Origin: a virus
Virus record (IMG/VR): IMGVR_UViG_3300032323_003899
Span: 1-64,000 of that record
Reading direction: 5' to 3' (one strand)
Length of the DNA stretch: 64,000 nucleotides
Shown here: one piece after another, positions 1 through 13,197 of the stretch
Layout: each line of letters begins with the position of its first letter
Position numbering within the stretch: the first letter of the stretch is position 1
Notes under the pieces: model-generated
Database searches by the model: none
What the model saw: only the letters and a program-made list of their open reading frames with translations
What the model was told of the DNA's origin: nothing
Program-made: the position numbers and the translations under genes

Positions 1-363
1 TCAGGAACCGATGGTTCTTCAGGAAGTTCAGGTACAAGTGGTTCTTCAGGAAGTTCTGGTACGAGTGGAAGTTCTGGTTCATCAGGAACTGATGGTTCTT
101 CAGGAAGTTCAGGTACAAGTGGTTCTTCAGGAAGCTCAGGAACAAGTGGAAGTTCTGGTTCATCAGGAACTGATGGTTCTTCAGGAAGCTCAGGAACAAG
201 TGGAAGTTCTGGTTCATCAGGAACTGATGGTTCTTCAGGAAGCTCAGGTACAAGTGGTAGTTCTGGTTCATCAGGTACAAGTGGAAGTTCTGGTTCATCA
301 GGAACCGATGGTTCTTCAGGAAGTTCAGGTACATCAGGTTCTAGTGGAACATCAGGAACATCC
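1..363 (+). repeat. Tandem Gly-X-Y coding repeat (9-residue, 27-base superperiod)
   Basis: Triplets follow the order GTx-GSS-GSS, giving a 9-residue (27-base) period. Aspartate replaces the Ser of GTS at visible residues 4, 31, 58, 76 and 103, i.e. every 18 or 27 residues. Near-identical DNA copies, differing mainly at third bases (gga/ggt, agt/agc), point to expansion by unequal recombination or slippage. Confidence 0.9.
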
Positions 364-834
364 GCAACCGGAACAACAAGATATTATGGTTCATTTACAA
401 GTAATGCAACACAAACAAATCCTGTTGCAAATGTTGCCCGAGCAATGAGTGCAGATACCACTGAACTTAGTAGTGGTGTTGTATTATCGGCAAATACAAG
501 GTTTGTGGTTCAAAATGAGGGTGTTTACAATATCCAATTCTCGGCACAATTACAACAATTAAATAATGTTGATAGTGCAATATCAATATGGTTTAGAAAA
601 AATGGTACGGACATCCCAAGAACAAACACAGAACTTGCCATAGATAAAAATCAAGGAGGAACTTCAAAATTGGTTGCTGCTTGGAATGTTGTGGAGAGTT
701 TGACTGCAAATCAATACATTGAAATTATGTGGTCGTCTCCTGATACAAGTATGGAAATATTATGGGAAGCCGCAAAAACAGGTCCAACCAGACCTGTTAC
801 ACCTTCAATAATTGTTACAGTAACTCAAGTATAG
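1..834 (+). CDS. Collagen-like tail fibre protein with C1q-like C-terminal domain (5' end outside window)
   Basis: The open frame starts before base 1 and runs to the TAG at 832-834. The first ~121 visible residues are about forty uninterrupted Gly-X-Y triplets, almost all GSS, GTS or GTD, with no proline or lysine. A Ser/Ala/Thr-Gly linker follows, then about 150 residues of beta-rich sequence resembling a C1q/TNF-like trimeric head (Phe-Val-Val-x-Asn-Glu-Gly-Val-Tyr, an aromatic core, and an Ile-Ile-Val-Thr-Val-Thr end). Collagen-like stalks with globular trimer ends are common in phage fibres, so a host-binding or surface fibre is the natural reading. It is the last gene before a terminator and the glycan cassette. 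Ser and Thr in every triplet offer dense O-glycosylation sites (inference). The collagen repeat is directly visible; the C1q assignment is by pattern only. Confidence 0.8.
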   Translation, partial: SGTDGSSGSSGTSGSSGSSGTSGSSGSSGTDGSSGSSGTSGSSGSSGTSGSSGSSGTDGSSGSSGTSGSSGSSGTDGSSGSSGTSGSSGSSGTSGSSGSSGTDGSSGSSGTSGSSGTSGTSATGTTRYYGSFTSNATQTNPVANVARAMSADTTELSSGVVLSANTRFVVQNEGVYNIQFSAQLQQLNNVDSAISIWFRKNGTDIPRTNTELAIDKNQGGTSKLVAAWNVVESLTANQYIEIMWSSPDTSMEILWEAAKTGPTRPVTPSIIVTVTQV

Positions 835-864
835 AATATTATTAAATAAAAACAATTTAGAAAG

Positions 865-897
865 AACCCTCTACTTTTTGTGGAGGGTTTTTATTTT
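865..897 (+). terminator. Rho-independent terminator after fibre gene
   Basis: Inverted repeat aaccctc (865-871) / gagggtt (883-889) with an 11-base loop, followed by a T-rich run. It separates the fibre gene from the glycan cassette. Confidence 0.75.
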
Positions 898-912
898 TCT
901 ACAAAAAATAGC

Positions 913-2187
913 ATGGCAAATAATAAAATATTCATTCAAATCGCGTCTTACAGAGACCCACAACTTGTTCCAACAATAAATGATATGTTGGCAAATGCAA
1001 AAAATCCAAAAAATTTAGTGATAGGTATTGCAAGACAATATTCTGAAACAGACGGGTTTGATAATTTAGATGAATGGAGAGATGATAAAAGATTCAGAAT
1101 TCTTGACATACCATACCAAGAAGCTAAAGGTGTGTGTTGGGCAAGACATTTAGTACAACAATTGTATAAAGATGAAAAATATACAATGCAAATAGACTCC
1201 CACATGAGATTCGAAAAGAATTGGGACGAAACTTTAATTAACATGATTAAGGGTCTACAAAAAGATGGATATAAGAAACCTCTACTTACGGGTTATGTAC
1301 CATCTTTTGACCCTGATAATGAACCTGCAGGAAGAGCAAAAGACCCATGGAGAATGGTGTTTGACAGATTTATTCCTGAAGGTGCAATCTTCTTTTTGCC
1401 TGAGACAATTCCAGGGTGGAGAGAGTTGAAAAAACCAGTAACTGCGAGATTCTATTCTGCTCACTTCTGTTTTACACTCGGTGAGTTTTCAAAAGAAGTC
1501 CAACACAATCCTGAATACTATTTCCACGGAGAAGAAATTTCAATTGCAGCGAGAGCTTATACTTGGGGTTATGACTTATTCCATCCACATGTTCCTGTTG
1601 TATATCATGAGTACACAAGAAAGGGTAGAACCAAACAGTGGGATGATGACAAAGAATGGGTTAAGAAAAACCAACATTCACATCTTTTGAATAGAAAGTT
1701 GTTTGGTATGGATGGTTTAACTCAAGAAGGTCACGATGGTGAGTTCGGTTTTGGCTCTGTTAGAACTTTGAAAGATTTTGAAAAATATTCAGGAATCTTA
1801 TTCGAAAGACGTTCTATTCAAAAATATACATTGGATAAAAACTATCCACCAAACCCGTACAACTACGAAACAGAAGAGGAATGGAAATCGGATTTCACAA
1901 AAATATTCAAACACTGTATTGATGTTTCATACAGTCAAGTACCTGAAAAAGATTATGATTTTTGGGTTGTTGCTTTCCATGATGATAAAGATGAAACTAT
2001 CTTTAGAAAAGATGCCGACAAAAATGAGATTGCAGGATTTATGAGAGACCCTGATGGATACTGCAAAGTATGGAGAGAGTTCCCAACACAAGAATTGCCA
2101 AAGTATTGGGTTGTATGGCCTCACTCAGAATCTAAAGGTTGGTGTGATAGATTGACAGGTCAATTAAATCATAACGTAGTAAGTTAA
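913..2187 (+). CDS. GlcNAc-transferase-like glycosyltransferase (Skp1-type family)
   Basis: 424 residues. The N-terminus (IFIQIASYRDPQL) and the core with a Asp-Ser-His (DSHMRF) metal-binding motif near residue 98 match the GlcNAc glycosyltransferase family that contains the Skp1 hydroxyproline GlcNAc transferase (GT60-type, GT-A fold). Further typical elements are a G-E-E-I block and several conserved His/Trp clusters. I chose the ATG at 913; the in-frame GTG at 880 lies inside the terminator hairpin. It is the first gene of the cassette, and its stop overlaps the next ATG by one base (TAATG), so translation is coupled. Its base composition is closer to the structural genes than to the very AT-rich genes that follow. 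A role in priming a glycan on the upstream fibre is inference. Confidence 0.75.
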   Translation: MANNKIFIQIASYRDPQLVPTINDMLANAKNPKNLVIGIARQYSETDGFDNLDEWRDDKRFRILDIPYQEAKGVCWARHLVQQLYKDEKYTMQIDSHMRFEKNWDETLINMIKGLQKDGYKKPLLTGYVPSFDPDNEPAGRAKDPWRMVFDRFIPEGAIFFLPETIPGWRELKKPVTARFYSAHFCFTLGEFSKEVQHNPEYYFHGEEISIAARAYTWGYDLFHPHVPVVYHEYTRKGRTKQWDDDKEWVKKNQHSHLLNRKLFGMDGLTQEGHDGEFGFGSVRTLKDFEKYSGILFERRSIQKYTLDKNYPPNPYNYETEEEWKSDFTKIFKHCIDVSYSQVPEKDYDFWVVAFHDDKDETIFRKDADKNEIAGFMRDPDGYCKVWREFPTQELPKYWVVWPHSESKGWCDRLTGQLNHNVVS

Positions 2188-2900
2188 TGATTTCCTATAA
2201 AGGAAAAAAAATTGCAGATAAGGGATTTGTAATAAATTTACCTTATAGGATGGATAGAAAATACCATACAGAACTTGTATTGAAGAAATACGGTTTTGAG
2301 GGATATGAGTATATTGATGGTGTAGTTCATGATGAACCTGAATGGAAAATTTATGGTTGTACTAAAGCTCTTTTGAATTGTGCAAAAATTGCACTTGACG
2401 AAGGGTTAGAATCAATATTAGTATTCGAAGATGACATCAAAGTTATGAACGGTACACAAGAGTCTGACTTCGATAGAGTTTTCGAAAAGTGGGATAAGTT
2501 TTATGAATACTTTGATTTAATTGCTTTGGGCTCAAGACCTATAGAGGGTTCAAGAATAGAAAAAGTGGATGAACATTTCGGTAAAGTTTCTAATGCGTTA
2601 TGCACTCAAGCTTTTTTATATAAAAGAAGTTTTTTAGAATATTTTTATGAAAATTTAAAAGATTATAAAGACCCAAATGACGCATACTACAAAGTTTTCT
2701 GTGATGAATTTATAAGTGATTGTTGTTCTCACGAAATACTCTGTAAACAAAAAAATAAACTATTTAATGTAGGGATAACAATACCGATGTTGTTCACCCA
2801 ACGAGATGGATATTCGGATAATTTACAATGTTATGAAAAATATGATGAATATCTCGAAAGATGTTATTGGGACGCATTAAGACTAGGCGAAAAAAAATAA
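2187..2900 (+). CDS. Glycosyltransferase family 25 protein (first copy)
   Basis: 237 residues. GT25 signatures are clear: FVINLPYRMDRK near residue 16, a Gly-Cys-Thr followed by an Ala-Leu helix around residues 60-70, and the acidic LVFEDDI motif near residue 85, which binds the metal-nucleotide sugar in this family. GT25 includes LPS galactosyltransferases and the procollagen galactosyltransferases. The start overlaps the previous stop. It shares its opening (KIADKGF) and layout with the next gene, so the two arose by duplication. Acceptor and sugar cannot be told from sequence. Confidence 0.8.
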   Translation: MISYKGKKIADKGFVINLPYRMDRKYHTELVLKKYGFEGYEYIDGVVHDEPEWKIYGCTKALLNCAKIALDEGLESILVFEDDIKVMNGTQESDFDRVFEKWDKFYEYFDLIALGSRPIEGSRIEKVDEHFGKVSNALCTQAFLYKRSFLEYFYENLKDYKDPNDAYYKVFCDEFISDCCSHEILCKQKNKLFNVGITIPMLFTQRDGYSDNLQCYEKYDEYLERCYWDALRLGEKK

Positions 2901-2929
2901 TTTTCAGGGTTATTATTCTGAATTAATAC

Positions 2930-3658
2930 ATGGTCACTTGGAATGATATAAAGATTGCAGATAAAGGATTTTTAATTAATCTTAAGGAAAGGACTGATAG
3001 ACTCGAAGACTCTCTGTTGGAATTGAACAAGATTAAAATTTCAGGTGTTAATCGATTTGAAGCAATTAGAATAGAAGAAGACTCTGATAAAGGATGGAAA
3101 ATCAGAGGTTGTACTCATAGTCACATCGAATTACTAAAATTACAAGTAACTAATAGATGGGATAAAATTTTAATTTTGGAAGATGATTTCGAATTGGACA
3201 TCTGTTCTCCAAATTCATTCGAAATAACTAATACTACAATAAATAAAATATCGAATGCAGATTTTGATTTATTATTCTTAGGAGCAACACTATTAGAAGA
3301 ATCAGAAAAATTCAATGAGTTTTTAATAAAACCTAAATCATTCGTTCAGACAACCGCATATATTTCTTCATTGAAGATGTCAGAGTTTGTTGTTAACAAT
3401 TTTAATTATTTGGACAAAGAATCTATGGTTAGCGGGGAACAAATCGATACTTTTTATAGTACTTTATCCTCAAAAAAACATTGGAGGATGTCTAATGTTT
3501 ATAAGGATTCAAATGTACTTTTGAATCATGATTTAAAAATATTTTTCCATTTTCCTATAATTTTTAATCAGAGACGTTCTTTTTCAGATATCTTGAATAT
3601 GGATACTTATTATGGAAATAATAATAAAACTAAAAATTTGAATTTTTACCCAAAGTAA
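2930..3658 (+). CDS. Glycosyltransferase family 25 protein (second copy)
   Basis: 242 residues, a paralogue of the gene before it. It has the same KIADKGFLINL opening, an RTDR basic motif, the Gly-Cys-Thr-His turn, and the LILEDDF acidic motif near residue 80. The middle and C-terminal part diverges, which suggests a different acceptor or sugar. Sequence from here to about 12100 is notably richer in A/T homopolymers than the flanking phage genes. Confidence 0.72.
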   Translation: MVTWNDIKIADKGFLINLKERTDRLEDSLLELNKIKISGVNRFEAIRIEEDSDKGWKIRGCTHSHIELLKLQVTNRWDKILILEDDFELDICSPNSFEITNTTINKISNADFDLLFLGATLLEESEKFNEFLIKPKSFVQTTAYISSLKMSEFVVNNFNYLDKESMVSGEQIDTFYSTLSSKKHWRMSNVYKDSNVLLNHDLKIFFHFPIIFNQRRSFSDILNMDTYYGNNNKTKNLNFYPK

Positions 3659-3675
3659 CAACAAAAAAAACTAAG

Positions 3676-4281
3676 ATGGAACAATATAATACGGATAAAT
3701 ATGCTCACGGATTTATAGATGTTTATGAGCCATATTTCAATGATATGATTGATAGTAAAAATATTTTAGAGATTGGCATATATTATGGAGGTAGTCTCAA
3801 ATACCTATCAGATAAATTCAAGAATGGTAAAATATATGGGATTGACATTGAAGACAAAACCAAATATGAAGAAGATAGGGTCAAAACATATATTGTTAAT
3901 CAAGAAGATAGAGACTCTCTGAATAGATTTTTGAAGGAAAATGATGTTGAGTTTGATATCATTATCGATGATGGTGGTCATACAATGAAACAACAACAAA
4001 TATCATTTGGAATATTGTTTAGACATCTAAAGAAGGGGGGAATCTATATTTTAGAAGATTTACATACCTCAAGATTAGAAAACTTTGGCACCATTTTTCC
4101 TGATGATTTGATAACCACTTTGGATATGTTACAGTCATTTAAATATACCAAAAACATAGCATCCAATTATATTTTGGATGAAGAAAAAGAATATATAAAA
4201 AATAACGTTGACACGATTAGAATATGGTCTAAAACTCCTGATTATAATCAAAGCGTCACTTCAATAATAAAGAAGAAATAA
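3676..4281 (+). CDS. Class I SAM-dependent methyltransferase (TylF/MycE-like sugar O-methyltransferase type)
   Basis: 201 residues. Motif I is ILEIGIYYGGS near residue 31, an acidic residue ending beta-2 follows (GIDIED), and IIIDDGGHTM near residue 95 matches the double-Asp/His signature of macrolide-sugar O-methyltransferases, where these residues bind the metal. A late ILEDLH motif is also typical. Family members methylate sugar hydroxyls, which fits a glycan cassette. The next gene begins with a related domain. Substrate unknown. Confidence 0.72.
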   Translation: MEQYNTDKYAHGFIDVYEPYFNDMIDSKNILEIGIYYGGSLKYLSDKFKNGKIYGIDIEDKTKYEEDRVKTYIVNQEDRDSLNRFLKENDVEFDIIIDDGGHTMKQQQISFGILFRHLKKGGIYILEDLHTSRLENFGTIFPDDLITTLDMLQSFKYTKNIASNYILDEEKEYIKNNVDTIRIWSKTPDYNQSVTSIIKKK

Positions 4282-4295
4282 ATACTAATTAATTT

Positions 4296-5690
4296 ATGAC
4301 ACTAACAGAAATAGCAAATAGATTGGGTACTGATAAAGGTACTAAACATTTTGAATATCATTCTTATACCGAAACATATCAAGAATTATTTCATCAATTG
4401 ATAGACAAAAAAATTAAAATGTTAGAAATAGGCGTTGCTGACCCAAGATTTCCTGGTGCTTCAATCCAAATGTGGACTGAATTTTTTTCAAAAATAGATT
4501 TTATTGGTTTTGACATTAATCCAAGTTGTAAAAATTTTGAAAAAGAAAATGTTCGAATATTCATTGGTGACCAAAGCGTAAGTGAAGACTTAGAACGATG
4601 TGTGGTTGAGTATGGTGGTGATTACGACATCATAATTGATGATGGACTTCATACCCATCTTCACCAAACCAAAAGTTTCGAGTCACTATATCCCCATTTA
4701 AAAGTGAACGGATTATATATTATAGAAGATTTACATGCATATGATTGCTCGAAAACAATAGAATGGTTCGAAGAAAGAAACATTCCGTTTGAACTACATA
4801 ATAACAATAAACTTTTAATACATAGAAAAGAAATGAACCCCCTTAATTTGATTTGGCAAACATTCAATGGTGACCAAACAACCTTTGAGTTTCAATATAC
4901 GACTGAAGTGCTATTCAAAGACTTCGAGCAAAATAGAATATTTGATGACGGTCAACTAACTACAGTTTTAGATAACTCGGTTATTATTTATTCAAATAAT
5001 TCGAATACAATTTCGGAACAATTCAATGAATATTTAAATAAGTTTGTTGAGAACGGATATAAATTTTATCTATTACATTTTTCAAATGAAAATTTAGGTC
5101 ATAACTGTGAGTATTATTCGAAAGCAAATCACGTTTTCAGAAATTATTATGATTCGAATATAACCAATGAAAATGTTACATTTATTCCTTTAGGTGTCAA
5201 AACAGGGTTTATTGATAAAACCAATGACAAAACTTTGAAATCAAAAGAGTATGAGTTTTCTTTTATAGGTCAACCGAAATCGGACAGACAAGACCTATTA
5301 TCTGTAATAGAAAATATGGAAAATGTTTTTATTCATAAAACAAATTCTTGGAATTGTTCAACATCATTGACTCAAGATGAATGTATTTCAATCTACAATA
5401 AAACAAAATTTGTACCCTGTCCGATGGGGTGGGTTCATCCCGATTCATTCAGATTGATGGAATGTTTAGAATCAGGGTCTGTACCAATTCTAAAAAATTA
5501 TAATAACTTAGAATATTTTACTAAAATTTGGGGGGAGTCCCCAATACCTGTAATTAATTCTTGGGACGAAATTGTAAATTATTATAATATGGAAAATGAC
5601 AAATATAATGAATTATATAAGGATGTATTTGATTGGTACTCTACTTTCAAAAGTAATTTATCTACGAAAATAAAAAATAATTTAAAGTAA
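4296..5690 (+). CDS. Bifunctional methyltransferase-glycosyltransferase fusion
   Basis: 464 residues in two parts. Residues 1 to ~175 form a class I methyltransferase related to the preceding gene: RLGTDKGTKHF opening, MLEIGVADP motif I, IIIDDGLHTH metal site and IIEDLHAYD. Residues ~215-450 look like the C-terminal half of a GT-B glycosyltransferase of exostosin/RXYLT1 type: FIPLGVKTGF, EYEFSFIGQP, then KFVPCPMGWVHPDSFRLMECLESGSVPI, the donor-binding Pro-x-Gly...Arg...Glu pattern (given here as residues ~375-405). Fusing a methylase to a transferase suggests that a sugar is added and capped in turn (inference). The fusion is continuous with no internal stop. Confidence 0.68.
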   Translation: MTLTEIANRLGTDKGTKHFEYHSYTETYQELFHQLIDKKIKMLEIGVADPRFPGASIQMWTEFFSKIDFIGFDINPSCKNFEKENVRIFIGDQSVSEDLERCVVEYGGDYDIIIDDGLHTHLHQTKSFESLYPHLKVNGLYIIEDLHAYDCSKTIEWFEERNIPFELHNNNKLLIHRKEMNPLNLIWQTFNGDQTTFEFQYTTEVLFKDFEQNRIFDDGQLTTVLDNSVIIYSNNSNTISEQFNEYLNKFVENGYKFYLLHFSNENLGHNCEYYSKANHVFRNYYDSNITNENVTFIPLGVKTGFIDKTNDKTLKSKEYEFSFIGQPKSDRQDLLSVIENMENVFIHKTNSWNCSTSLTQDECISIYNKTKFVPCPMGWVHPDSFRLMECLESGSVPILKNYNNLEYFTKIWGESPIPVINSWDEIVNYYNMENDKYNELYKDVFDWYSTFKSNLSTKIKNNLK

Positions 5691-5692
5691 AA

Positions 5693-6439
5693 ATGAATAA
5701 TTTTGATATTGGGATAACCACTTTTTCACTACGATATGATTTTGTTGAATCATTAGTAAAAAGTATAAGAACTTTAGGTATTGATAATAATATTTTTCTA
5801 TGCATTAATGGAGAAAAAGACTCAAATTTTTCTGAAGAATACAGACAAAAGATACTATCATTATGCCTCGAATACAAAAATGTATTTCCAATATTTTTTG
5901 TTGAGACTAGAGGACTATCTAAAATGTGGAATACATTAATAATACATTCAACCAAAGACGACCTTTTAATATTGAATGATGATATCAATGTAATTTCTGA
6001 TAATGTATTTGAAGTTGTTTCTAGTCACATTAAAACTCCCGAATATTTTGGATTGAGTATTATTAATAACACATTTTCATTTTTTGTTGTTAACAAAAAA
6101 TTTATAGATGAATTAGGATATTTTGATGAACGATTAATAGGCTTCGGTGAAGAAGATGGAGATATTGTGTATAGATTAAACAAACAAACGGGTAATAAAA
6201 TTTTTCGTTTGAGTGCTTCTGGTTTAGAAAATATTGTATCCCATATTAGACATGAACACATAAAAAGTGGGATAGGAAAATATTCTCTTTTCAATAGGGA
6301 TTACATCTTTAATAAAAAATATAGATGTCATGGAGACATATATTATTTTCCTGAGGGAATAGAATGTGAACAATTATTGGAAAACATACAACTCTATCCA
6401 TACGAAAAATTTTTTATGGAAAATAAGAAAAATTTATGA
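5693..6439 (+). CDS. GT-A glycosyltransferase (GT2-like)
   Basis: 248 residues. It begins DIGITTFSLR, a typical beta-1 of GT2 enzymes, has LLILNDDINVI (acidic metal motif) near residue 88 and FGEEDGDIVYRL near residue 150, the acceptor-side ED motif seen in GT2/GT7 enzymes. The ATG follows the previous stop by two bases, and its own TGA overlaps the next ATG. Very AT-rich. Sugar specificity unknown. Confidence 0.65.
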   Translation: MNNFDIGITTFSLRYDFVESLVKSIRTLGIDNNIFLCINGEKDSNFSEEYRQKILSLCLEYKNVFPIFFVETRGLSKMWNTLIIHSTKDDLLILNDDINVISDNVFEVVSSHIKTPEYFGLSIINNTFSFFVVNKKFIDELGYFDERLIGFGEEDGDIVYRLNKQTGNKIFRLSASGLENIVSHIRHEHIKSGIGKYSLFNRDYIFNKKYRCHGDIYYFPEGIECEQLLENIQLYPYEKFFMENKKNL

Positions 6440-7290
6440 TTGTAAGTAAAACAGTTAATAAAAGTGAATTATTTTATGAAACCAAATATGATAATTCAAA
6501 TTTGAATGAATATTATCAACACATTCTAAATGGAATTATTTCATTCCTGACAAAAAACAATGTCCCTTATTCAATAAATTTTGGTTGTAATGATTTATCG
6601 AAAGATATTAATTTAGATTTTCAGTATGAACATACAATTACTAACGATGGAAAAGGTGGGTATTATTGTCAAGTACATAGGTTTGAAGAATTAATCAAAT
6701 TAGATTCAGTTTTCGAATATTCTAATGCAAATGTTCATAATATACAAACTTCGAATTACTTTAAAGACTTCTCACAAGTTTTTCGATATTATCCTCCGTT
6801 AATTTATGATATCGAAGATATTGATAATAGTACTGTTAGATTAAAAAATTGTCTAACAATTCATAATTCAAATACGAGAAGAAATAATATACATCAAAAG
6901 GTTAATATGGACTATTTTCATAATGTTTGTAGTGGTAGTGATGTATATTGCAAAAATAATATTAAAAATACTATGAATGAGTATAAAATATTGGTCAACA
7001 TACACCAAACGGATAAATTTTGTACTTTGGAAGAATTAAGAGTTTTACCCGCTTTAATGACAGGTATATTAGTTATTAGTGAAGAATCGCCATATAAAGA
7101 ATATATTCCATATCATGAACAAATCATATGGTCATCTTATGATAAGATTGTTGAGACAATAAATGATGTTTTAGACAATTACGATTTTTTTAGACAAAAA
7201 TATTTGACTGGTTTGAACTTAATAATAAAAAATATGAAATTTACTGCTGACAATCAGATGAATTCAATTTTCGAAAAATATATAGTATGA
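6436..7290 (+). CDS. Probable GT-B glycosyltransferase (family 1/4-like C-terminal domain)
   Basis: 284 residues. The N-terminal half is not recognised. The C-terminal half carries a GT4-like donor domain: KILVNIHQTDKF, an E-E-L-R-V-L-P-A-L-x-x-G motif near residue 200, and ISEESPYKEYIPY, where the nucleotide-sugar-binding glutamate would sit. Starts with a 4-base ATGA overlap with the preceding gene and ends in another, so it is embedded in the coupled cassette. Confidence 0.5.
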   Translation: MIVSKTVNKSELFYETKYDNSNLNEYYQHILNGIISFLTKNNVPYSINFGCNDLSKDINLDFQYEHTITNDGKGGYYCQVHRFEELIKLDSVFEYSNANVHNIQTSNYFKDFSQVFRYYPPLIYDIEDIDNSTVRLKNCLTIHNSNTRRNNIHQKVNMDYFHNVCSGSDVYCKNNIKNTMNEYKILVNIHQTDKFCTLEELRVLPALMTGILVISEESPYKEYIPYHEQIIWSSYDKIVETINDVLDNYDFFRQKYLTGLNLIIKNMKFTADNQMNSIFEKYIV

Positions 7291-7886
7291 TACATTTCAT
7301 CACTCCCCTTTATCGATTTAATAATCTAAAAATAATATATTCAACAATTAAAAATCAAGTCGATGATTTTAATTGGCATTTGATTGAAGGGTCTAATAAA
7401 ATTGGTGACGATGATATTGGTTTTTTAGAAGATGACGAAAGAGTTAAATTTTATAAAATTGAAACTTCACAAATTTGGGGGCATGAACAAAGGAACTTTT
7501 TTATAACTGATATAAAATGTGAAGATGAAGATTGGTGTTATTTTTTAGATGATGATAATATTATTACTTGGGATTTAATTTCGGAATATAAACAAGAAAA
7601 AAACTCAGAGATTGATTTTATTTTATTTTCTCAAAAATGTGGATTGACTGAAAAAATTAGACTCTATGGGAATAATGAGGATAGATTAAATTTAGGTCTT
7701 TGCGATATTGCCTCATTTATGATGAGATATCGAATGATTAAAAAAACATTTATACATAATATCTCTTATAGAAATGCGGATGGTCATTACGCCTTAGATA
7801 TTAGACGACTTAAAAATGAACATAAGTTCAAATATTGTCCTGATAAATTTGTAAGATACAATAGTTTGTCTTTGGACATAGTGTAA
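7287..7886 (+). CDS. Small GT-A glycosyltransferase
   Basis: 199 residues. MIHFITPLYRFNN at the start and the WCYFLDDDNII acidic motif near residue 87 fit a compact GT2-like nucleotide-diphospho-sugar transferase. It is short for the family (usually 230 residues or more) but has no visible frameshift. Translationally coupled to the previous gene by an ATGATA overlap. Confidence 0.55.
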   Translation: MIHFITPLYRFNNLKIIYSTIKNQVDDFNWHLIEGSNKIGDDDIGFLEDDERVKFYKIETSQIWGHEQRNFFITDIKCEDEDWCYFLDDDNIITWDLISEYKQEKNSEIDFILFSQKCGLTEKIRLYGNNEDRLNLGLCDIASFMMRYRMIKKTFIHNISYRNADGHYALDIRRLKNEHKFKYCPDKFVRYNSLSLDIV

Positions 7887-7902
7887 CTTAAAAAGAATAG
7901 AT

Positions 7903-8838
7903 ATGATTAAAATAAAATTAGAATGTTGGTGGACAGATACTTTATCATTAAACTCGAGGATGATTAAACAATTTGTACCGAATACAGATTTAACAAATTA
8001 TTCGTTTGTTACTGAGAATCCAGATTACACAATTGTATTTGGTAGAACCGAATGGGGCAAAATTGAGACTTCGAAAGATAAAACTTTTTATATCTCACAA
8101 GAACCTTTATGGTCTCCAAATCAACCGAAAGACGGAATTCACGATTACAGTTCAAAAATATTAATATCTGATAAATTAGAGTATCCAGATAGAGAAGAAT
8201 ACATAGAAACGTTATTACCAATGTTTTATGCAGGCCGAGGAGAAAAAGACCACAGAGAAGAATGGGATTGGTCTTCTAAATTAAAAGATAAAGACTATTC
8301 AAAAAACAAGTCAGTTTCAATCATAGTTAGAAAAGACACTTATAGTCATTACAATCATTTACAAAATTTGCAAACCAATAAAATAAATTATGAACAAAGA
8401 ACAAATTTAGGTATTGAATTATCCAAAGATAATAGAATTGATGTTTATGGAACTTACTGGGTGTCTAATGGTGAAAATATCAAAGGGGAAGTGTGGAATA
8501 AACATGTTGGTCTCGATGATTATAAATTTTCGGTGGCTTGTGAAAACACTATTCAGAAAAATTACATTAGTGAAAAATTTTGGGATGTTATTTTATCGGA
8601 TACCGTTCCAATTTATTTAGGATGTTCTAATATTAATGAATTGATACCTGATAATTGTTATATCTCTTTGAATAATATGACTATGGATGAAATGGTTACT
8701 AAAGTAAAATCCATAGTAGATAATGAATCAGAAATCTACGAACAATATTTAGATAACATAAGAAATTTAAAAAAAGAATTTTTCATAAATCCTCAATACA
8801 ATATTTGGGAAAGAATTAAATTATTAATTAATGAATAG
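7903..8838 (+). CDS. GT10 (alpha-1,3-fucosyltransferase-like) glycosyltransferase
   Basis: 311 residues. The C-terminal half has the GT10 hallmark: YKFSVACENT, then NYISEKFWDVIL, then DTVPIYLGC (residues ~205-245), corresponding to the fucosyltransferase motif that binds GDP-fucose. The N-terminal half (acceptor domain) includes FYISQEPLWSP. Known members transfer fucose from GDP-fucose to GlcNAc-containing acceptors. No GDP-fucose synthesis genes are in the window, so host supply would be needed. Its 3' end overlaps the next start by eight bases. Confidence 0.8.
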   Translation: MIKIKLECWWTDTLSLNSRMIKQFVPNTDLTNYSFVTENPDYTIVFGRTEWGKIETSKDKTFYISQEPLWSPNQPKDGIHDYSSKILISDKLEYPDREEYIETLLPMFYAGRGEKDHREEWDWSSKLKDKDYSKNKSVSIIVRKDTYSHYNHLQNLQTNKINYEQRTNLGIELSKDNRIDVYGTYWVSNGENIKGEVWNKHVGLDDYKFSVACENTIQKNYISEKFWDVILSDTVPIYLGCSNINELIPDNCYISLNNMTMDEMVTKVKSIVDNESEIYEQYLDNIRNLKKEFFINPQYNIWERIKLLINE

Positions 8839-9550
8839 TATTTCCTTAAACATGAAATTTTGGGACGATGGTCAACCTAACTCTACTAGAATTAGAAATG
8901 TTTCTTTTTCTTGGAAAGAACTAAAAAAATTGACTGATTACCTTAATAGTAATGGTGTTGTTGCCATTTCATCGTTATATGATTTTTCCCCCACACAAAT
9001 AATTCCGGATGCAATTCACATACCATATCCTTTGGGGGTTTACAAAAAATCTGAAAAAACAAACATAATTTTAAAAGACAAAAAAAATTATGATTTTTTT
9101 ATGGTTATTGATTGTGATGCATTTTTTCATGAACAAGATTACGAAAAACTATTAGAGTTGATAAAGAGTTTAGAAAAAGGGGATGTCTGTACTTTTGATT
9201 TATCAAAATTGAATGACAACGTTTCTCTTTACATAATCAATGATAATTTTATTATCGAAAATGCGGATTGGTCCTATGCATATTCAGGTGCGAAAGAAAA
9301 TGGTCCCTTAAAACATCATATTGGTGGATTGGGGGGAGTTTATATTACGGATACTAATTTATTACTTTCTTTGGGGGGTTTTGATGAAAAGTATGTTGGG
9401 TGGGGTGCTGAGGACGGAGATATGATGGGTAGAATTTACTATTCAGAAATCCCTCATAAAATTAAACCAACAAATAATTTTGCACCATTTCATTTACCTC
9501 ATTTTTCGGATTGGGGAAATGAATTATATTCACAAAGATTCAATAATTGA
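8831..9550 (+). CDS. GT-A glycosyltransferase with galactosyltransferase-type C-terminal motif
   Basis: 239 residues. FFMVIDCDAFF near residue 92 is the DxD metal motif. GGVYITDTNLLLSLGGFDE and VGWGAEDGDMMGRI (residues ~168-200) match the C-terminal galactosyltransferase/GalNAc-transferase module (GT7/GT27 type) with its GWGxED acceptor motif. The gene overlaps the previous one by eight bases. Sugar (Gal, GalNAc or other) is not certain. Confidence 0.75.
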   Translation: MNSISLNMKFWDDGQPNSTRIRNVSFSWKELKKLTDYLNSNGVVAISSLYDFSPTQIIPDAIHIPYPLGVYKKSEKTNIILKDKKNYDFFMVIDCDAFFHEQDYEKLLELIKSLEKGDVCTFDLSKLNDNVSLYIINDNFIIENADWSYAYSGAKENGPLKHHIGGLGGVYITDTNLLLSLGGFDEKYVGWGAEDGDMMGRIYYSEIPHKIKPTNNFAPFHLPHFSDWGNELYSQRFNN

Positions 9551-9553
9551 AAT

Positions 9554-10441
9554 ATGAAAGTTAAATTTATAACCGCAATTTATAGCGATTTACACGGAAC
9601 ATCTTTCGGTGGAAGACCAAGCAGAGGTGGTCATTATAAATACAGTTTATTGTCTCTATTGAAGATAACTGACGCTGACTTTTTATGTTATACATCGGAA
9701 AGGGAAATTGAAGATTTAAAAAATTTTTTTTACGAGCAGAACAATATTTCCACAGAAAAACTATCTTTCAAGTCATTTGATTTATCAAATACAAAATTTA
9801 AAGATTTGATTAATGAAATAAAACAAGATGACATTGAAAATGTTAAAAGGTCTGATAGATGTGTTGAGATACAATACAGTAAATTTCATTGGTGGTGGGA
9901 AGAAGATAAATCTTACGATTATTATTATTGGATTGATGCTGGTTTGTCTCATTGTGGATTGGTTCCTGATGAATATTTAATAAGTAATCATTCTTACGGA
10001 AGGTATTTTGAAAGTAGTTTATTTAATAACTTTTTTCTGAAGAATTTAATAGAAGATACCAAAGATAAATTTTTATTGGTTGGTAAGGAAAATAATAGAA
10101 ACTATTGGTCGGGAACAGTTGATTCAAGATGGTACAAAGAATACGATACGAGTATTCATATTGTAGGCGGATTGTTTGGTGGGCATAAAGATAACTGGAA
10201 TAATGTTGTTAGTATTTTCGAAGATTATTTAGAAAAAATATTAAAAGAGGATAAAAAATTATATCATGAAGAAGTAATTTTGAGTCTAATGAATGTAAAC
10301 CATAAAGAGTTATTTGTGAGAAAAGATTTTGATATATGGTGGCATAAATCGAATGCCCCTCAAGGGGTTGCAGATGACCTTTTCGAAAAAAATAAAAGTT
10401 TTTATAAAATTTTAGAAGATTTGAATCGAATTTATGAATAA
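9554..10441 (+). CDS. HtrL/YibB-like protein (putative glycosyltransferase)
   Basis: 295 residues. It has YYYWIDAGLSH near residue 133 and GGLFGG near residue 208, with an ITAIYSDLHG opening. These match the HtrL/YibB family, found in polysaccharide loci and thought to be GT-A-type transferases, although most members are uncharacterised. It is homologous to the N-terminal half of the next gene. Three bases separate it from the previous stop, and its end overlaps the next start by eight bases. Confidence 0.55.
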   Translation: MKVKFITAIYSDLHGTSFGGRPSRGGHYKYSLLSLLKITDADFLCYTSEREIEDLKNFFYEQNNISTEKLSFKSFDLSNTKFKDLINEIKQDDIENVKRSDRCVEIQYSKFHWWWEEDKSYDYYYWIDAGLSHCGLVPDEYLISNHSYGRYFESSLFNNFFLKNLIEDTKDKFLLVGKENNRNYWSGTVDSRWYKEYDTSIHIVGGLFGGHKDNWNNVVSIFEDYLEKILKEDKKLYHEEVILSLMNVNHKELFVRKDFDIWWHKSNAPQGVADDLFEKNKSFYKILEDLNRIYE

Positions 10442-12107
10442 TATAACTTTAGTAACGGGTCTTTGGGATATCGGTAGAGGTAATTTGAATGAAGGTTGGT
10501 CTAGGTCTTATGAGCATTATATAAATAATTTCAAAAAATTGTTAGATTTTGATGTTAATTTAATTGTTTTTGGTGATGAAGAACTTCGTAAAATTGTTCA
10601 AGACCACCGTAAAGATGAAAACACACAGTTTATCTTGAGACCATTATCTTGGTTCAAGACATCTGAGTTTTTTGAAAAAATTCAATCAATTAGAAATGAC
10701 GAAAAATGGAAAAATATTTCTGGTTGGTTACCTGAATCGACTCAATCGAGGTTAGAACTTTATAACCCATTAGTCATGTCCAAAGTATTTTTACTACATG
10801 ATGCAAAAATCATGGATAAGTTCAATTCGGATTATATGTTCTGGATTGATGGTGGCATAACAAACACAGTTCATCCAGGATACTTTACCCATGATAAAGT
10901 TTTAGATTTATTAGCAAAATATATCTCGAAGTTTAGTTTTATTTGTTTTCCATATAGTGCGGAAAAAGAAATTCATGGTTTCGAATACACTAAATTAAAT
11001 TCGATTGCTGGCGGTGAAGTTAATAAAGTTGCGAGAGGAGGATTTTTTGGAGGCCCCAAAAAAACTATTAGTGACATCAACTCAATTTATTATGGATTGT
11101 TAAAATCCACTTTGGATGAAGGATATATGGGTACTGAAGAGTCCATATTTACTATAATGTGTTATAAACACTCAGATTTGATAAATTACTTCGAAATCGA
11201 ATCTAACGGATTGATTAGTAAATTTTTTGAAGACTTAAAAAATGATAGTTTGGTTGTCAAATCAGAATCTAATATTTCACACGTTGATGTCTTGGATGTT
11301 AATAAAGTTGGTCTTTATGTCATAACATTCAACAGTCCTAAACAGTTCTCTACTTTGTTAAAATCTTTCGAATTATATGATAAAGATTTTATTGTAAAAC
11401 CAAAAAAATATCTATTAAATAATTCTAGTGATGAATCAACTTTTGATGAATATGAAAAATTATGTAAAGAATTTGGTTTTGAACACATTAAAAAAGATAA
11501 TTTAGGTATTTGTGGAGGAAGACAATTCATTTCAGAACATTTTGAAGAAAGTGAACTTGATTTTATGTTTTTTTTCGAAGATGATATGTTTTTTTATAAC
11601 GGAAAGGATACAACTTGTAGAAACGGATTCAATCGATATGTAAAAAATTTGTATTCAAGTTCGTTACAAATTTGTAAAATGGAAAACTTTGACTTTCTGA
11701 AACTAAACTATACTGAATTCTTTGGTGACAATGGGACACAATGGTCTTGGTATAACGTACCACAAAACATAAGAGAAAAATATTGGCCATTAAAAAATAA
11801 ATTACCTCAAATAGGATTAGACCCAAATGCGCCGAAAGCCGAGTATAAAAATGTTCTTTCCCACCAAGGAATACCTTACACAAAGGGAGATGTTTACTAC
11901 TGTAATTGGCCTCAAGTTGTGAGTAAATCAGGTAATAAAAAAATGTTTTTAGATACAACTTGGGCACATCCTTTTGAACAAACTTGGATGAGTCATATGT
12001 ATCAGTTAACTAAAAAGGGTGAACTTAATCCAGGATTACTCCTTATTACACCGACTGAACACGATAGGTTTGAACATTACGATAGAAATTTGCGTAAAGA
12101 ATCCTAA
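10434..12107 (+). CDS. Two-domain protein: HtrL/YibB-like N-terminus and GT-A glycosyltransferase C-terminus
   Basis: 557 residues. Residues 1 to ~265 repeat the HtrL/YibB pattern: LVTGLWDIGRG, MFWIDGGITN near residue 140 and GGFFGGPKK near residue 202. Residues ~292-557 form a separate GT2-like domain beginning VGLYVITFNSP, with a FFFEDDMFF acidic motif near residue 383 and several Trp-rich acceptor-site stretches. This is the last gene of the cassette; the next gene has its own promoter-like box overlapping this stop region. Confidence 0.55.
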   Translation: MNNITLVTGLWDIGRGNLNEGWSRSYEHYINNFKKLLDFDVNLIVFGDEELRKIVQDHRKDENTQFILRPLSWFKTSEFFEKIQSIRNDEKWKNISGWLPESTQSRLELYNPLVMSKVFLLHDAKIMDKFNSDYMFWIDGGITNTVHPGYFTHDKVLDLLAKYISKFSFICFPYSAEKEIHGFEYTKLNSIAGGEVNKVARGGFFGGPKKTISDINSIYYGLLKSTLDEGYMGTEESIFTIMCYKHSDLINYFEIESNGLISKFFEDLKNDSLVVKSESNISHVDVLDVNKVGLYVITFNSPKQFSTLLKSFELYDKDFIVKPKKYLLNNSSDESTFDEYEKLCKEFGFEHIKKDNLGICGGRQFISEHFEESELDFMFFFEDDMFFYNGKDTTCRNGFNRYVKNLYSSSLQICKMENFDFLKLNYTEFFGDNGTQWSWYNVPQNIREKYWPLKNKLPQIGLDPNAPKAEYKNVLSHQGIPYTKGDVYYCNWPQVVSKSGNKKMFLDTTWAHPFEQTWMSHMYQLTKKGELNPGLLLITPTEHDRFEHYDRNLRKES

Positions 12108-12110
12108 CAA

Positions 12111-12120
12111 TATATTTATT
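12111..12120 (+). promoter_or_regulatory. TATATTTATT box, 3 bases before a start codon
   Basis: TATATTTATTGTT lies directly before the ATG at 12124. The core TATTTATTGTTATG is repeated exactly on the minus strand before the gene starting at 17544. If it is a promoter, the mRNA would be leaderless or nearly so. Confidence 0.5.
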
Positions 12121-12123
12121 GTT

Positions 12124-12501
12124 ATGGAATTTTTTATCAAAAAAAATGCAACCCTACCTGTTCTTAAAATGCAAGTTGTTAAGGACGGTAGGAGTGGGTA
12201 TCTTGAAATAATGGAAAGCTTGGAGGTATCTACAATTTATTTCTCAATGGTTAACACCTCTACAGGTATTGCAAAAATTGTATCTGCACCTTGTAGTATA
12301 GTACCTTTAACTTTACCTGCGGGAGCGACACCTGAGTATTATATCTATTATCAGTTCAGTGCGAGAGATACAAATCAGGTTGGAAGATATCAGTGTCAAT
12401 TTTTGTTAAAGAATGATGAAGGAAATTTAATGTTACCTCTCAGGGAAGAGCTCTACATTAATGTTCAGGACAGTTTTATTTCAACCGAACCTTGTTGTTA
12501 A
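12124..12501 (+). CDS. Small beta-rich structural protein (BppU N-terminal-like)
   Basis: 125 residues. Upstream in-frame codons exist back to 12019 but overlap the glycosyltransferase end; the ATG at 12124 sits right after a TATTTATT box and is preferred. The sequence (FFIKKNATLPVLKMQV, YYIYYQFSARDT, VGRYQCQFLLKND, LREELYINVQDSF) resembles the beta-sandwich N-terminal domain of phage baseplate upper proteins or fibre adaptors, which attach fibres to the tail. The protein ends in Glu-Pro-Cys-Cys. Function by resemblance only. Confidence 0.45.
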   Translation: MEFFIKKNATLPVLKMQVVKDGRSGYLEIMESLEVSTIYFSMVNTSTGIAKIVSAPCSIVPLTLPAGATPEYYIYYQFSARDTNQVGRYQCQFLLKNDEGNLMLPLREELYINVQDSFISTEPCC

Positions 12502-12534
12502 TTTACTTTTTATGATGTCCTATTAGTTTTTTTC

Positions 12535-13197
12535 ATGATTCAAGATTTTTTGGGGGTTGATATAACCTACCCTAATAATATTACAACGGAACAAGAACTA
12601 TTTTTTTTGTACGGATTAATTTCTTCAATGAATCCAAAAACCATTGTCGAGTTAGGGGGCGGTTCCTCTGGCATATTTTCTCAACTTTTTATAAGGGCTC
12701 AAAAAAATAATCTTGAAGCTAAGTTATTTTCGGTAGATATTTTGGAAATGAAAAAAAAATCAGATAATCATTTTCCAATAAAGAAGAATGTAGATGATGT
12801 AACATTGGGTGATTTACATAATCGAAAAATAGATATTCTTATTTTTGATTGTCATGTAGTAATACCCCAACTGAATTTCTATAACAAAATGCTCGAAAAT
12901 AAATTGATAGACGACAACACAGTTCTTATTTTACACGATACAAATCTATATTATGAACCATATTGTACGTTCTTTAAACAAAATGGTGGTACTTATGGTT
13001 TGGACTATAAAGATGCGTATGCCCCCCAATGGGTTGAAAGAAATTTAACCAACTATTTTAAGTTGAAGGGGTATGATGTTTTCAACTTACATACGAAAGC
13101 AGAAAATCACAATGATAATTATCCCTTTTTGAATGGGTTTTCTGTATGTCAAAAATTTTCCCCTTTACCCCCGTTCTATGTAGATTACCCCGAATAA
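12535..13197 (+). CDS. Class I SAM-dependent methyltransferase
   Basis: 220 residues. IVELGGGSSGIFS near residue 37 is motif I, LFSVDIL the acidic beta-2 end, DILIFDCHVV the motif II region and LILHDTN a late strand, all as in small-molecule or sugar methyltransferases of the Methyltransf_24 type. It lies outside the coupled cassette but could belong to the same glycan pathway. The gene has no T-tract terminator after it; a TATATTTA element follows at 13204. Confidence 0.6.
   Translation: MIQDFLGVDITYPNNITTEQELFFLYGLISSMNPKTIVELGGGSSGIFSQLFIRAQKNNLEAKLFSVDILEMKKKSDNHFPIKKNVDDVTLGDLHNRKIDILIFDCHVVIPQLNFYNKMLENKLIDDNTVLILHDTNLYYEPYCTFFKQNGGTYGLDYKDAYAPQWVERNLTNYFKLKGYDVFNLHTKAENHNDNYPFLNGFSVCQKFSPLPPFYVDYPE

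Follow-up and report, generated by a model that had tools for sequence, protein, structure and literature searches.

What is a phage doing with a long run of glycan genes next to one of its fibre genes, and on which molecules would their products act? This question is raised by positions 1–64,000 of a virus record 70,817 bases long (IMGVR_UViG_3300032323_003899, record G000), which make up the whole stretch analysed here and are called the window below. The window opens inside a collagen-like fibre gene, which is followed on the same strand by 14 tightly packed genes (913–13197) that often overlap by 4–8 bases and begin with a glycosyltransferase (GT) of family GT60, and then by the gene for DNA polymerase B. 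A sequence-only reading had taken this arrangement for a collagen fibre with a dedicated glycosylation cassette. We find that this is too narrow, and suggest, with a probability of roughly two in three, that the phage encodes a locus for mucin-type O-glycosylation, with the stalks of its own fibres as the target.

The enzyme that leads the cassette

The first cassette gene encodes a member of PF11397 (231.6 bits against a cut-off of 21), with 97% coverage to its homologue in phage XacN1. The AlphaFold2 (AF2) model of the enzyme has a mean predicted local distance difference test score (pLDDT) of 92.7, and the best 34 Foldseek matches to it are all polypeptide N-acetylgalactosamine (ppGalNAc) transferases. 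In the VIA comparison these enzymes take ranks 1–29 (Z 22.4–19.5, root-mean-square deviation 3.2–3.8, 258–284 residues aligned), and the next other enzyme follows at Z 18.0. Among 52 homologues of about 31–98% identity to the window enzyme, the DxH motif (D95, H97) is invariant and G206-E207-E208 nearly so, and the window enzyme combines the catalytic motif with the GT-A fold of polypeptide N-acetylhexosamine (HexNAc) transferases. A sequence search of the PDB gave no solved GT60 relative at E 1. The nearest solved fold is that of the animal ppGalNAc-transferases (GT27), which share the DxH motif, although identity to them is 12–15% and the phage enzyme's C-terminal part lies outside the fold matches.

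Family GT60 of CAZy includes OGNT1 of Trypanosoma cruzi, which makes N-acetylglucosamine (GlcNAc)-alpha-O-Thr on mucins, and also the enzyme that modifies Skp1 in the cytosol of Dictyostelium and Toxoplasma (PMC9472816, PMC8724618, PMC6939170). TcOGNT1/2 share with the window-type enzymes Thr-rich, mucin-like repeat proteins as (likely) acceptors; the window-type enzymes, whose activity is predicted, differ in being phage or bacterial, soluble, linked to fibre genes and accompanied by HtrL_YibB partners. Skp1 Gnt1 is likewise soluble and cytosolic, but it needs hydroxyproline, and nothing in the phage cassette points to a prolyl hydroxylase. The analogy to Skp1 and hydroxyproline that had been drawn picked the wrong branch of GT60, and the mucin (Thr) branch fits better. 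As family, fold and neighbours agree, transfer to a polypeptide is the likely activity predicted for the phage enzyme.

Conserved core and neighbouring Thr/Pro-rich repeats

At least 558 stretches of viral contigs in public collections encode GT60, and 80 loci of 82–98% identity were compared with the window (81 close loci in total). The order is exactly GT60, a GT25-like gene, cl6 and cl1, followed by a small protein and the polymerase, in 64 of the 81; in the remaining loci the interior is swapped for 2–10 variable genes, the window being the longest with 10 genes between GT60 and cl1. The conserved core consists of GT60, usually the GT25-like gene, a remote HtrL_YibB gene (cl6, which alone has no Pfam match) and an HtrL_YibB–GT fusion (cl1), and eight cassette genes of the window belong to the variable insert. 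The steadiest partner of GT60 is cl1, found in all 81 close loci, in most loci of a second, more distant phage clade (clade 2) and in a minority of bacterial GT60 loci; it matches TIGR02192 at E 2.5e-20, under the cut-off of that model. A carbamoyltransferase gene fills the variable slot in Xanthomonas and Stenotrophomonas jumbo phages (L177:13418-15715, L178:13515-15815).

The sequence-only reading had described about twelve coupled glycan genes that build a methylated, perhaps fucosylated glycan. The genes are indeed packed on one strand, but they form no fixed unit, and because GT10 and the methyltransferases sit in an insert absent from 64/81 loci, fucosyl and methyl transfer would be local elaborations that fit the variant of the window and not the system as a whole. 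The family assignments hold for PF11397, GT25, GT10 and Methyltransf_24 (two more methyltransferase-like matches in the cassette are below cut-off), but two insert genes have no credible family. By hydropathy, none of the 14 cassette proteins has a membrane segment.

In all 77 loci with enough upstream sequence, Ser/Thr-rich repeats are encoded just upstream of GT60 on the same strand, and none of the 933 other open reading frames (ORFs) in the same loci encodes such repeats. The repeats are Thr/Pro-rich and mucin-like (PTPTNTPTQTPT-type) in 75 of these loci and GSS/GTS collagen in 13, and the immediate neighbour of GT60 is collagen-like in only three (the window, L010 and L066). The window phage has a Thr/Pro-rich protein at about 67.25–69.1 kb of the record, just outside the window (L009:12253-14121), and a 98% relative encodes a 1,843-residue Thr/Pro-rich protein two genes upstream of GT60. 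Thr/Ser/Pro-rich repeat proteins are in this way linked to the initiating enzyme, as expected of a mucin-type system. Within 10 kb, 75/80 close GT60 loci have Ser/Thr repeats, against 0/80 random viral loci; the figures are 15/35 for clade-2 GT60 loci, 12/79 for bacterial loci and 6/80 for loci picked by the fibre head domain.

As gene order around GT60 is mostly inherited, independent tests were made in which contigs were picked without reference to GT60. GT60 was present on 13 of 28 contigs picked only by a Thr/Pro repeat, on 2 of 25 picked only by a GSS/GTS repeat and on none of 28 picked by a random 14-mer, with the reservation that the random set, and slightly also the collagen set, include smaller contigs that have a lower chance of holding GT60. 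Head-domain-picked contigs carried it in 2/35; the head domain was a poor proxy for collagen fibres, with Ser/Thr collagen repeats nearby in only 2/80 loci, which is why the collagen DNA pattern was used directly. Thr/Pro-rich viral contigs of 125–234 kb in which no GT60 was found are G073, G081, G089 and G093 (behind L187, L212, L235 and L244).

The association is also found far from the window. The Xanthomonas phage XacN1 and the Stenotrophomonas phage RAS14 encode a 44–46% identical GT60 followed by carbamoyltransferase, cl6 and cl1 homologues (with one extra gene in XacN1), and in both phages a large structural protein that ends in a PTPTPTTTP-type tail is encoded next to these genes. The cultured phage CM1 carries the locus as well. 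The XacN1 report describes at least two virion glycoproteins detected by proteomics, and its authors proposed that two glycosyltransferases encoded by the phage itself, ORF328 and ORF334, are responsible (PMC5852040). ORF334 is the GT60 of that phage, 46% identical to the window enzyme; its locus shares the order of cl6 and cl1 and the Thr/Pro tail on a nearby structural protein, and differs in the carbamoyltransferase in the variable slot, the Proteobacterial host and the lack of a collagen gene in the stretch examined.

In clade 2 the GT60 genes are 42–50% identical and stand in tandem; at L534:2131-10001 two of them are flanked and separated by long Thr/Pro-rich genes, and at L545:5451-11257 Thr/Pro-rich genes lie upstream of an adjacent pair. 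On the Jiulongibacter sediminis chromosome and a Saprospiraceae contig, GT60 and cl1 adjoin a divergent Thr/Pro-rich protein (L442:8950-9735, L436:8507-9649), which in the latter carries a Por secretion-tail domain. In Burkholderiales, VgrG of the type VI secretion system (T6SS), whose C-terminus bears long repeats of the (TP)n or TPEPS type, is encoded three genes from GT60 (repeat proteins at L480:15081-17567, L462:16628-18973 and L484:15117-17489). In bacterial loci, ORFs at most two genes from GT60 are more often Thr/Pro-rich than those at a greater distance (9/265 vs 3/608, p 0.0017), and the Thr/Pro-neighbour trait changes at least 7 times on a tree built from 52 GT60 proteins.

The collagen-like fibre and the features of the locus

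The fibre stalk consists, over its first ~124 residues, of 40 Gly-X-X triplets (25 GSS, 10 GTS, 5 GTD), and the repeat is proline-free; the collagen pattern gives 29 matches here against 0 for a reversed-pattern control. The head matches Pfam BclA_C at E 1.6e-4, but with 22.0 bits it falls below the curated cut-off of 38. Its AF2 model (pLDDT 95.6) has BclA, BxpB and TNF ligands including 4-1BBL as Foldseek matches in the PDB at E about 1e-10. The fibre thus has the BclA-type architecture of a Gly-X-X stalk followed by a TNF/C1q-like trimer head, and works like a BclA protein without being filed as one. Triplet count and family matches bear out the earlier description of a proline-free collagen-like fibre gene ending at 834 with mostly glycan genes after it on the same strand, though not quite that the cassette follows directly, since an intrinsic terminator intervenes (Table 1). 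A terminator-like site is present at the same place in 73/80 related loci and in 0/400 shuffles, and as it is kept across loci we suggest that the fibre gene and the cassette are probably transcribed separately.

Both record ends fall inside collagen repeats (window 1–372; L009:14900-15818). A circular genome broken within one fibre gene was ruled out, because a 98%-identical relative of 145,698 bases carries the two ends as different genes ~64 kb apart, the right-hand one of 1,823 residues. The record therefore starts inside a gene of which the window fibre is only the C-terminal piece. Giant collagen-like fibre genes of 3,072 and 1,823 residues (L174:2353-11568 and L174:14088-19556) lie near the contig end of the close relative, and many related contigs begin shortly upstream of GT60, probably also from assembly breaks in collagen repeats. 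The phage is contractile-tailed, with a tail sheath, a UvsX-like recombinase, a DnaB helicase and an SprB-repeat protein. This makes a host among the Bacteroidota likely, a view helped by the metagenome-assembled Bacteroidota contigs on which the nearest cellular copies of GT60 lie. In L433 and L435 the small protein cl2 is fused to, or trailed by, copies that contain Thr/Pro-rich stretches.

Table 1. Features at the left end of the window, with family matches.
Feature	Position	Strand	Basis or remark
Collagen-like (GSS/GTS/GTD)n stalk, C-terminal part	1..372	+	5′ end of gene open at record start
TNF/C1q-like (BclA-type) head of fibre, 153 residues	373..834	+	BclA_C, AF2, Foldseek
Intrinsic terminator, strong	862..892	+	between fibre and GT60 gene
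Glycosyltransferase of the GT60 type (PF11397), proposed to initiate as a polypeptide HexNAc-transferase; core	913..2187	+	PF11397 E 2.4e-68; phrog_24687 E 1.8e-162
GT25-like glycosyltransferase	2187..2900	+	PF01755 E 3e-4, below cut-off
GT25 glycosyltransferase	2930..3658	+	PF01755 E 3e-8
Methyltransferase, possibly sugar O-methyltransferase; variable insert	3676..4281	+	PF13578 (Methyltransf_24) E 4.8e-7, above cut-off; phrog_21658
Methyltransferase-like N-terminus and RXYLT1_C-like transferase, fusion; variable insert	4296..5690	+	PF24785 E 1.4e-9; phrog_21658
GT2/GT7-like glycosyltransferase; variable insert	5693..6439	+	PF10111 E 4.9e-6, just under cut-off
Cassette gene; variable insert	6436..7290	+	no Pfam or PHROG match
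Cassette gene; variable insert	7287..7886	+	no credible Pfam or PHROG match
GT10, fucosyltransferase-like; variable insert	7903..8838	+	PF00852 E 2.7e-17
GT7C/GT2-like, galactosyltransferase-like; variable insert	8831..9550	+	PF02709 E 4.1e-8
Core gene cl6, remote HtrL_YibB homologue	9554..10441	+	hhalign to HtrL_YibB domain of cl1, 98.7%, E 1.6e-16
Core gene cl1, HtrL_YibB domain and GT-like C-terminal domain	10434..12107	+	PF09612 E 4.6e-18
Conserved small protein cl2	12124..12501	+	in 79/81 loci, between cl1 and DNA polymerase
Methyltransferase-like gene	12535..13197	+	PF13578 E 0.0011, below cut-off

Acceptors, alternatives and a proposed pathway

A cassette dedicated to the collagen triplets, on which a methylated, perhaps fucosylated glycan stabilises the proline-free helix, seems rather unlikely to us. 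It draws on the three loci in which a collagen fibre adjoins the cassette, on GSS/GTS repeats somewhere on 25/36 GT60 contigs against 0/28 random contigs, and on the likeness to Bacillus BclA, which also joins a collagen-like stalk to a TNF-like head and is glycosylated (PMC8968730), although on the spore and not on a virion. Three such neighbours are few, however, and the collagen pattern picks out contigs with GT60 far less often than the Thr/Pro pattern does; GT10 and the methyltransferases, moreover, are missing from most loci. The glycan of BclA is made by enzymes other than the cassette types. With cassette homologues mainly beside Thr/Pro-rich genes, neither the collagen triplets as a specific target nor the stabilising of a proline-free helix as the purpose is supported. 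The usual acceptor context of related enzymes is Pro-rich sequence around Thr, which likewise favors the Thr/Pro stalks over proline-free collagen as acceptors; as collagen repeats are frequent in GT60 phages, collagen stalks are a possible second acceptor.

We consider it unlikely that the enzymes alter the surface polysaccharide of the host, for example to block superinfection. GT25 and HtrL_YibB are families known from lipopolysaccharide (LPS) gene clusters, and the same role has been proposed for glycosyltransferases of pelagimyophage host-recognition clusters (PMC7029224), but this cassette encodes no membrane segments of the kind that the membrane steps of LPS or O-antigen synthesis call for, its family matches include no flippase, polymerase or lipid-carrier enzyme, and its initiating enzyme is nearest to polypeptide transferases. 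The stalks, of the Thr/Pro as of the collagen kind, might be just ordinary linkers that give flexibility, and the GT genes unrelated cargo at a structural/replication junction. This would agree with a gene order inherited within one phage group and with the Thr/Pro contigs that lack GT60; we hold it very unlikely, since the pairing turns up again in distant phages, on bacterial chromosomes and at T6SS loci, with at least 7 changes on the tree. Glycosylation of modified bases in phage DNA appears even more improbable. The C-terminus of cl1 weakly matches phrog_842, a hydroxymethylcytosine glucosyltransferase (E 6.9e-5), and the next gene after the cassette is a DNA polymerase, yet fibre genes lie next to the cassette, and its distant copies go together with proteins that are secreted or belong to the T6SS. 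Thymidylate synthase, considered as a sign of modified bases, is absent from 3/8 contigs and of the ordinary type in both relatives in which it was examined, with the asparagine of GLPFNIASY retained; the synthases (two relatives, eight contigs) thus give no sign of a modified-base pathway, whole genomes being unscreened for other routes. O-glycosylation of a fibre protein, rather than of DNA or host polysaccharide, is in this respect the part of the sequence-only reading that stands best, given the polypeptide-modifying family and the ppGalNAc-like fold.

Several points weigh against a mucin-type system acting on fibre stalks. The adjacency in 77/77 loci is largely a single inherited gene order, and 15 of 28 Thr/Pro-rich contigs are without GT60, being fragments or reflecting other roles of the repeats. 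No Thr/Pro repeat lies within 10 kb in clade-2 L516-L533 and in 67/79 bacterial GT60 loci. GT-A folds are common to enzymes with many acceptors, so that a shared fold does not show function, and given the terminator, fibre and cassette need not be co-expressed. Glycan, enzyme activity and acceptor are all predictions from genes and models.

The analysis shows which genes are present, that their order is conserved, to which family and fold the enzyme belongs and that Thr/Pro repeats accompany the locus in genomes; from this we infer a donor sugar, acceptors, an order of steps and a benefit for mucin-type glycosylation of the stalks. In the cytoplasm of the infected cell, late in infection, GT60 would add the first HexNAc, most likely alpha-GlcNAc from host uridine diphosphate-GlcNAc, to Thr/Ser of the low-complexity stalk repeats of tail fibres. 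The HtrL_YibB-type enzymes (cl6 and cl1) and the GT25-like enzymes would extend the glycan, which the products of the variable slot (here GT10, GT7C/GT2-like, RXYLT1_C-like and methyltransferases) could cap and diversify. The main acceptors would be the Thr/Pro-rich stalks whose genes adjoin the locus throughout the group, with GSS/GTS collagen-like stalks as a plausible second. The stalk would likely gain stiffness and protease resistance, and the virion a surface coat that is quick to vary.

More tentatively, and at somewhat less than even odds, GT60 may initiate mucin-type O-glycosylation in prokaryotes and phages in general, on fibre stalks, secreted Bacteroidota proteins and T6SS VgrG spikes, and the exchangeable decorating slot of the phages would then vary the glycan coat of the virion much as a bacterial surface is varied by O-antigen loci. 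In the openly accessible literature we came across no work on GT60 in phages or bacteria, nor on mucin-type glycosylation by phages, which is weak evidence of absence. Phage virion glycoproteins have rarely been reported and their enzymes are hardly known. If our suggestion is true, phages make their own coat glycans, which would account for many unexplained phage glycosyltransferases and bear on host recognition and on the immune visibility of phages, and mucin-type initiation, treated as eukaryotic in reviews, would extend to bacteria and viruses.

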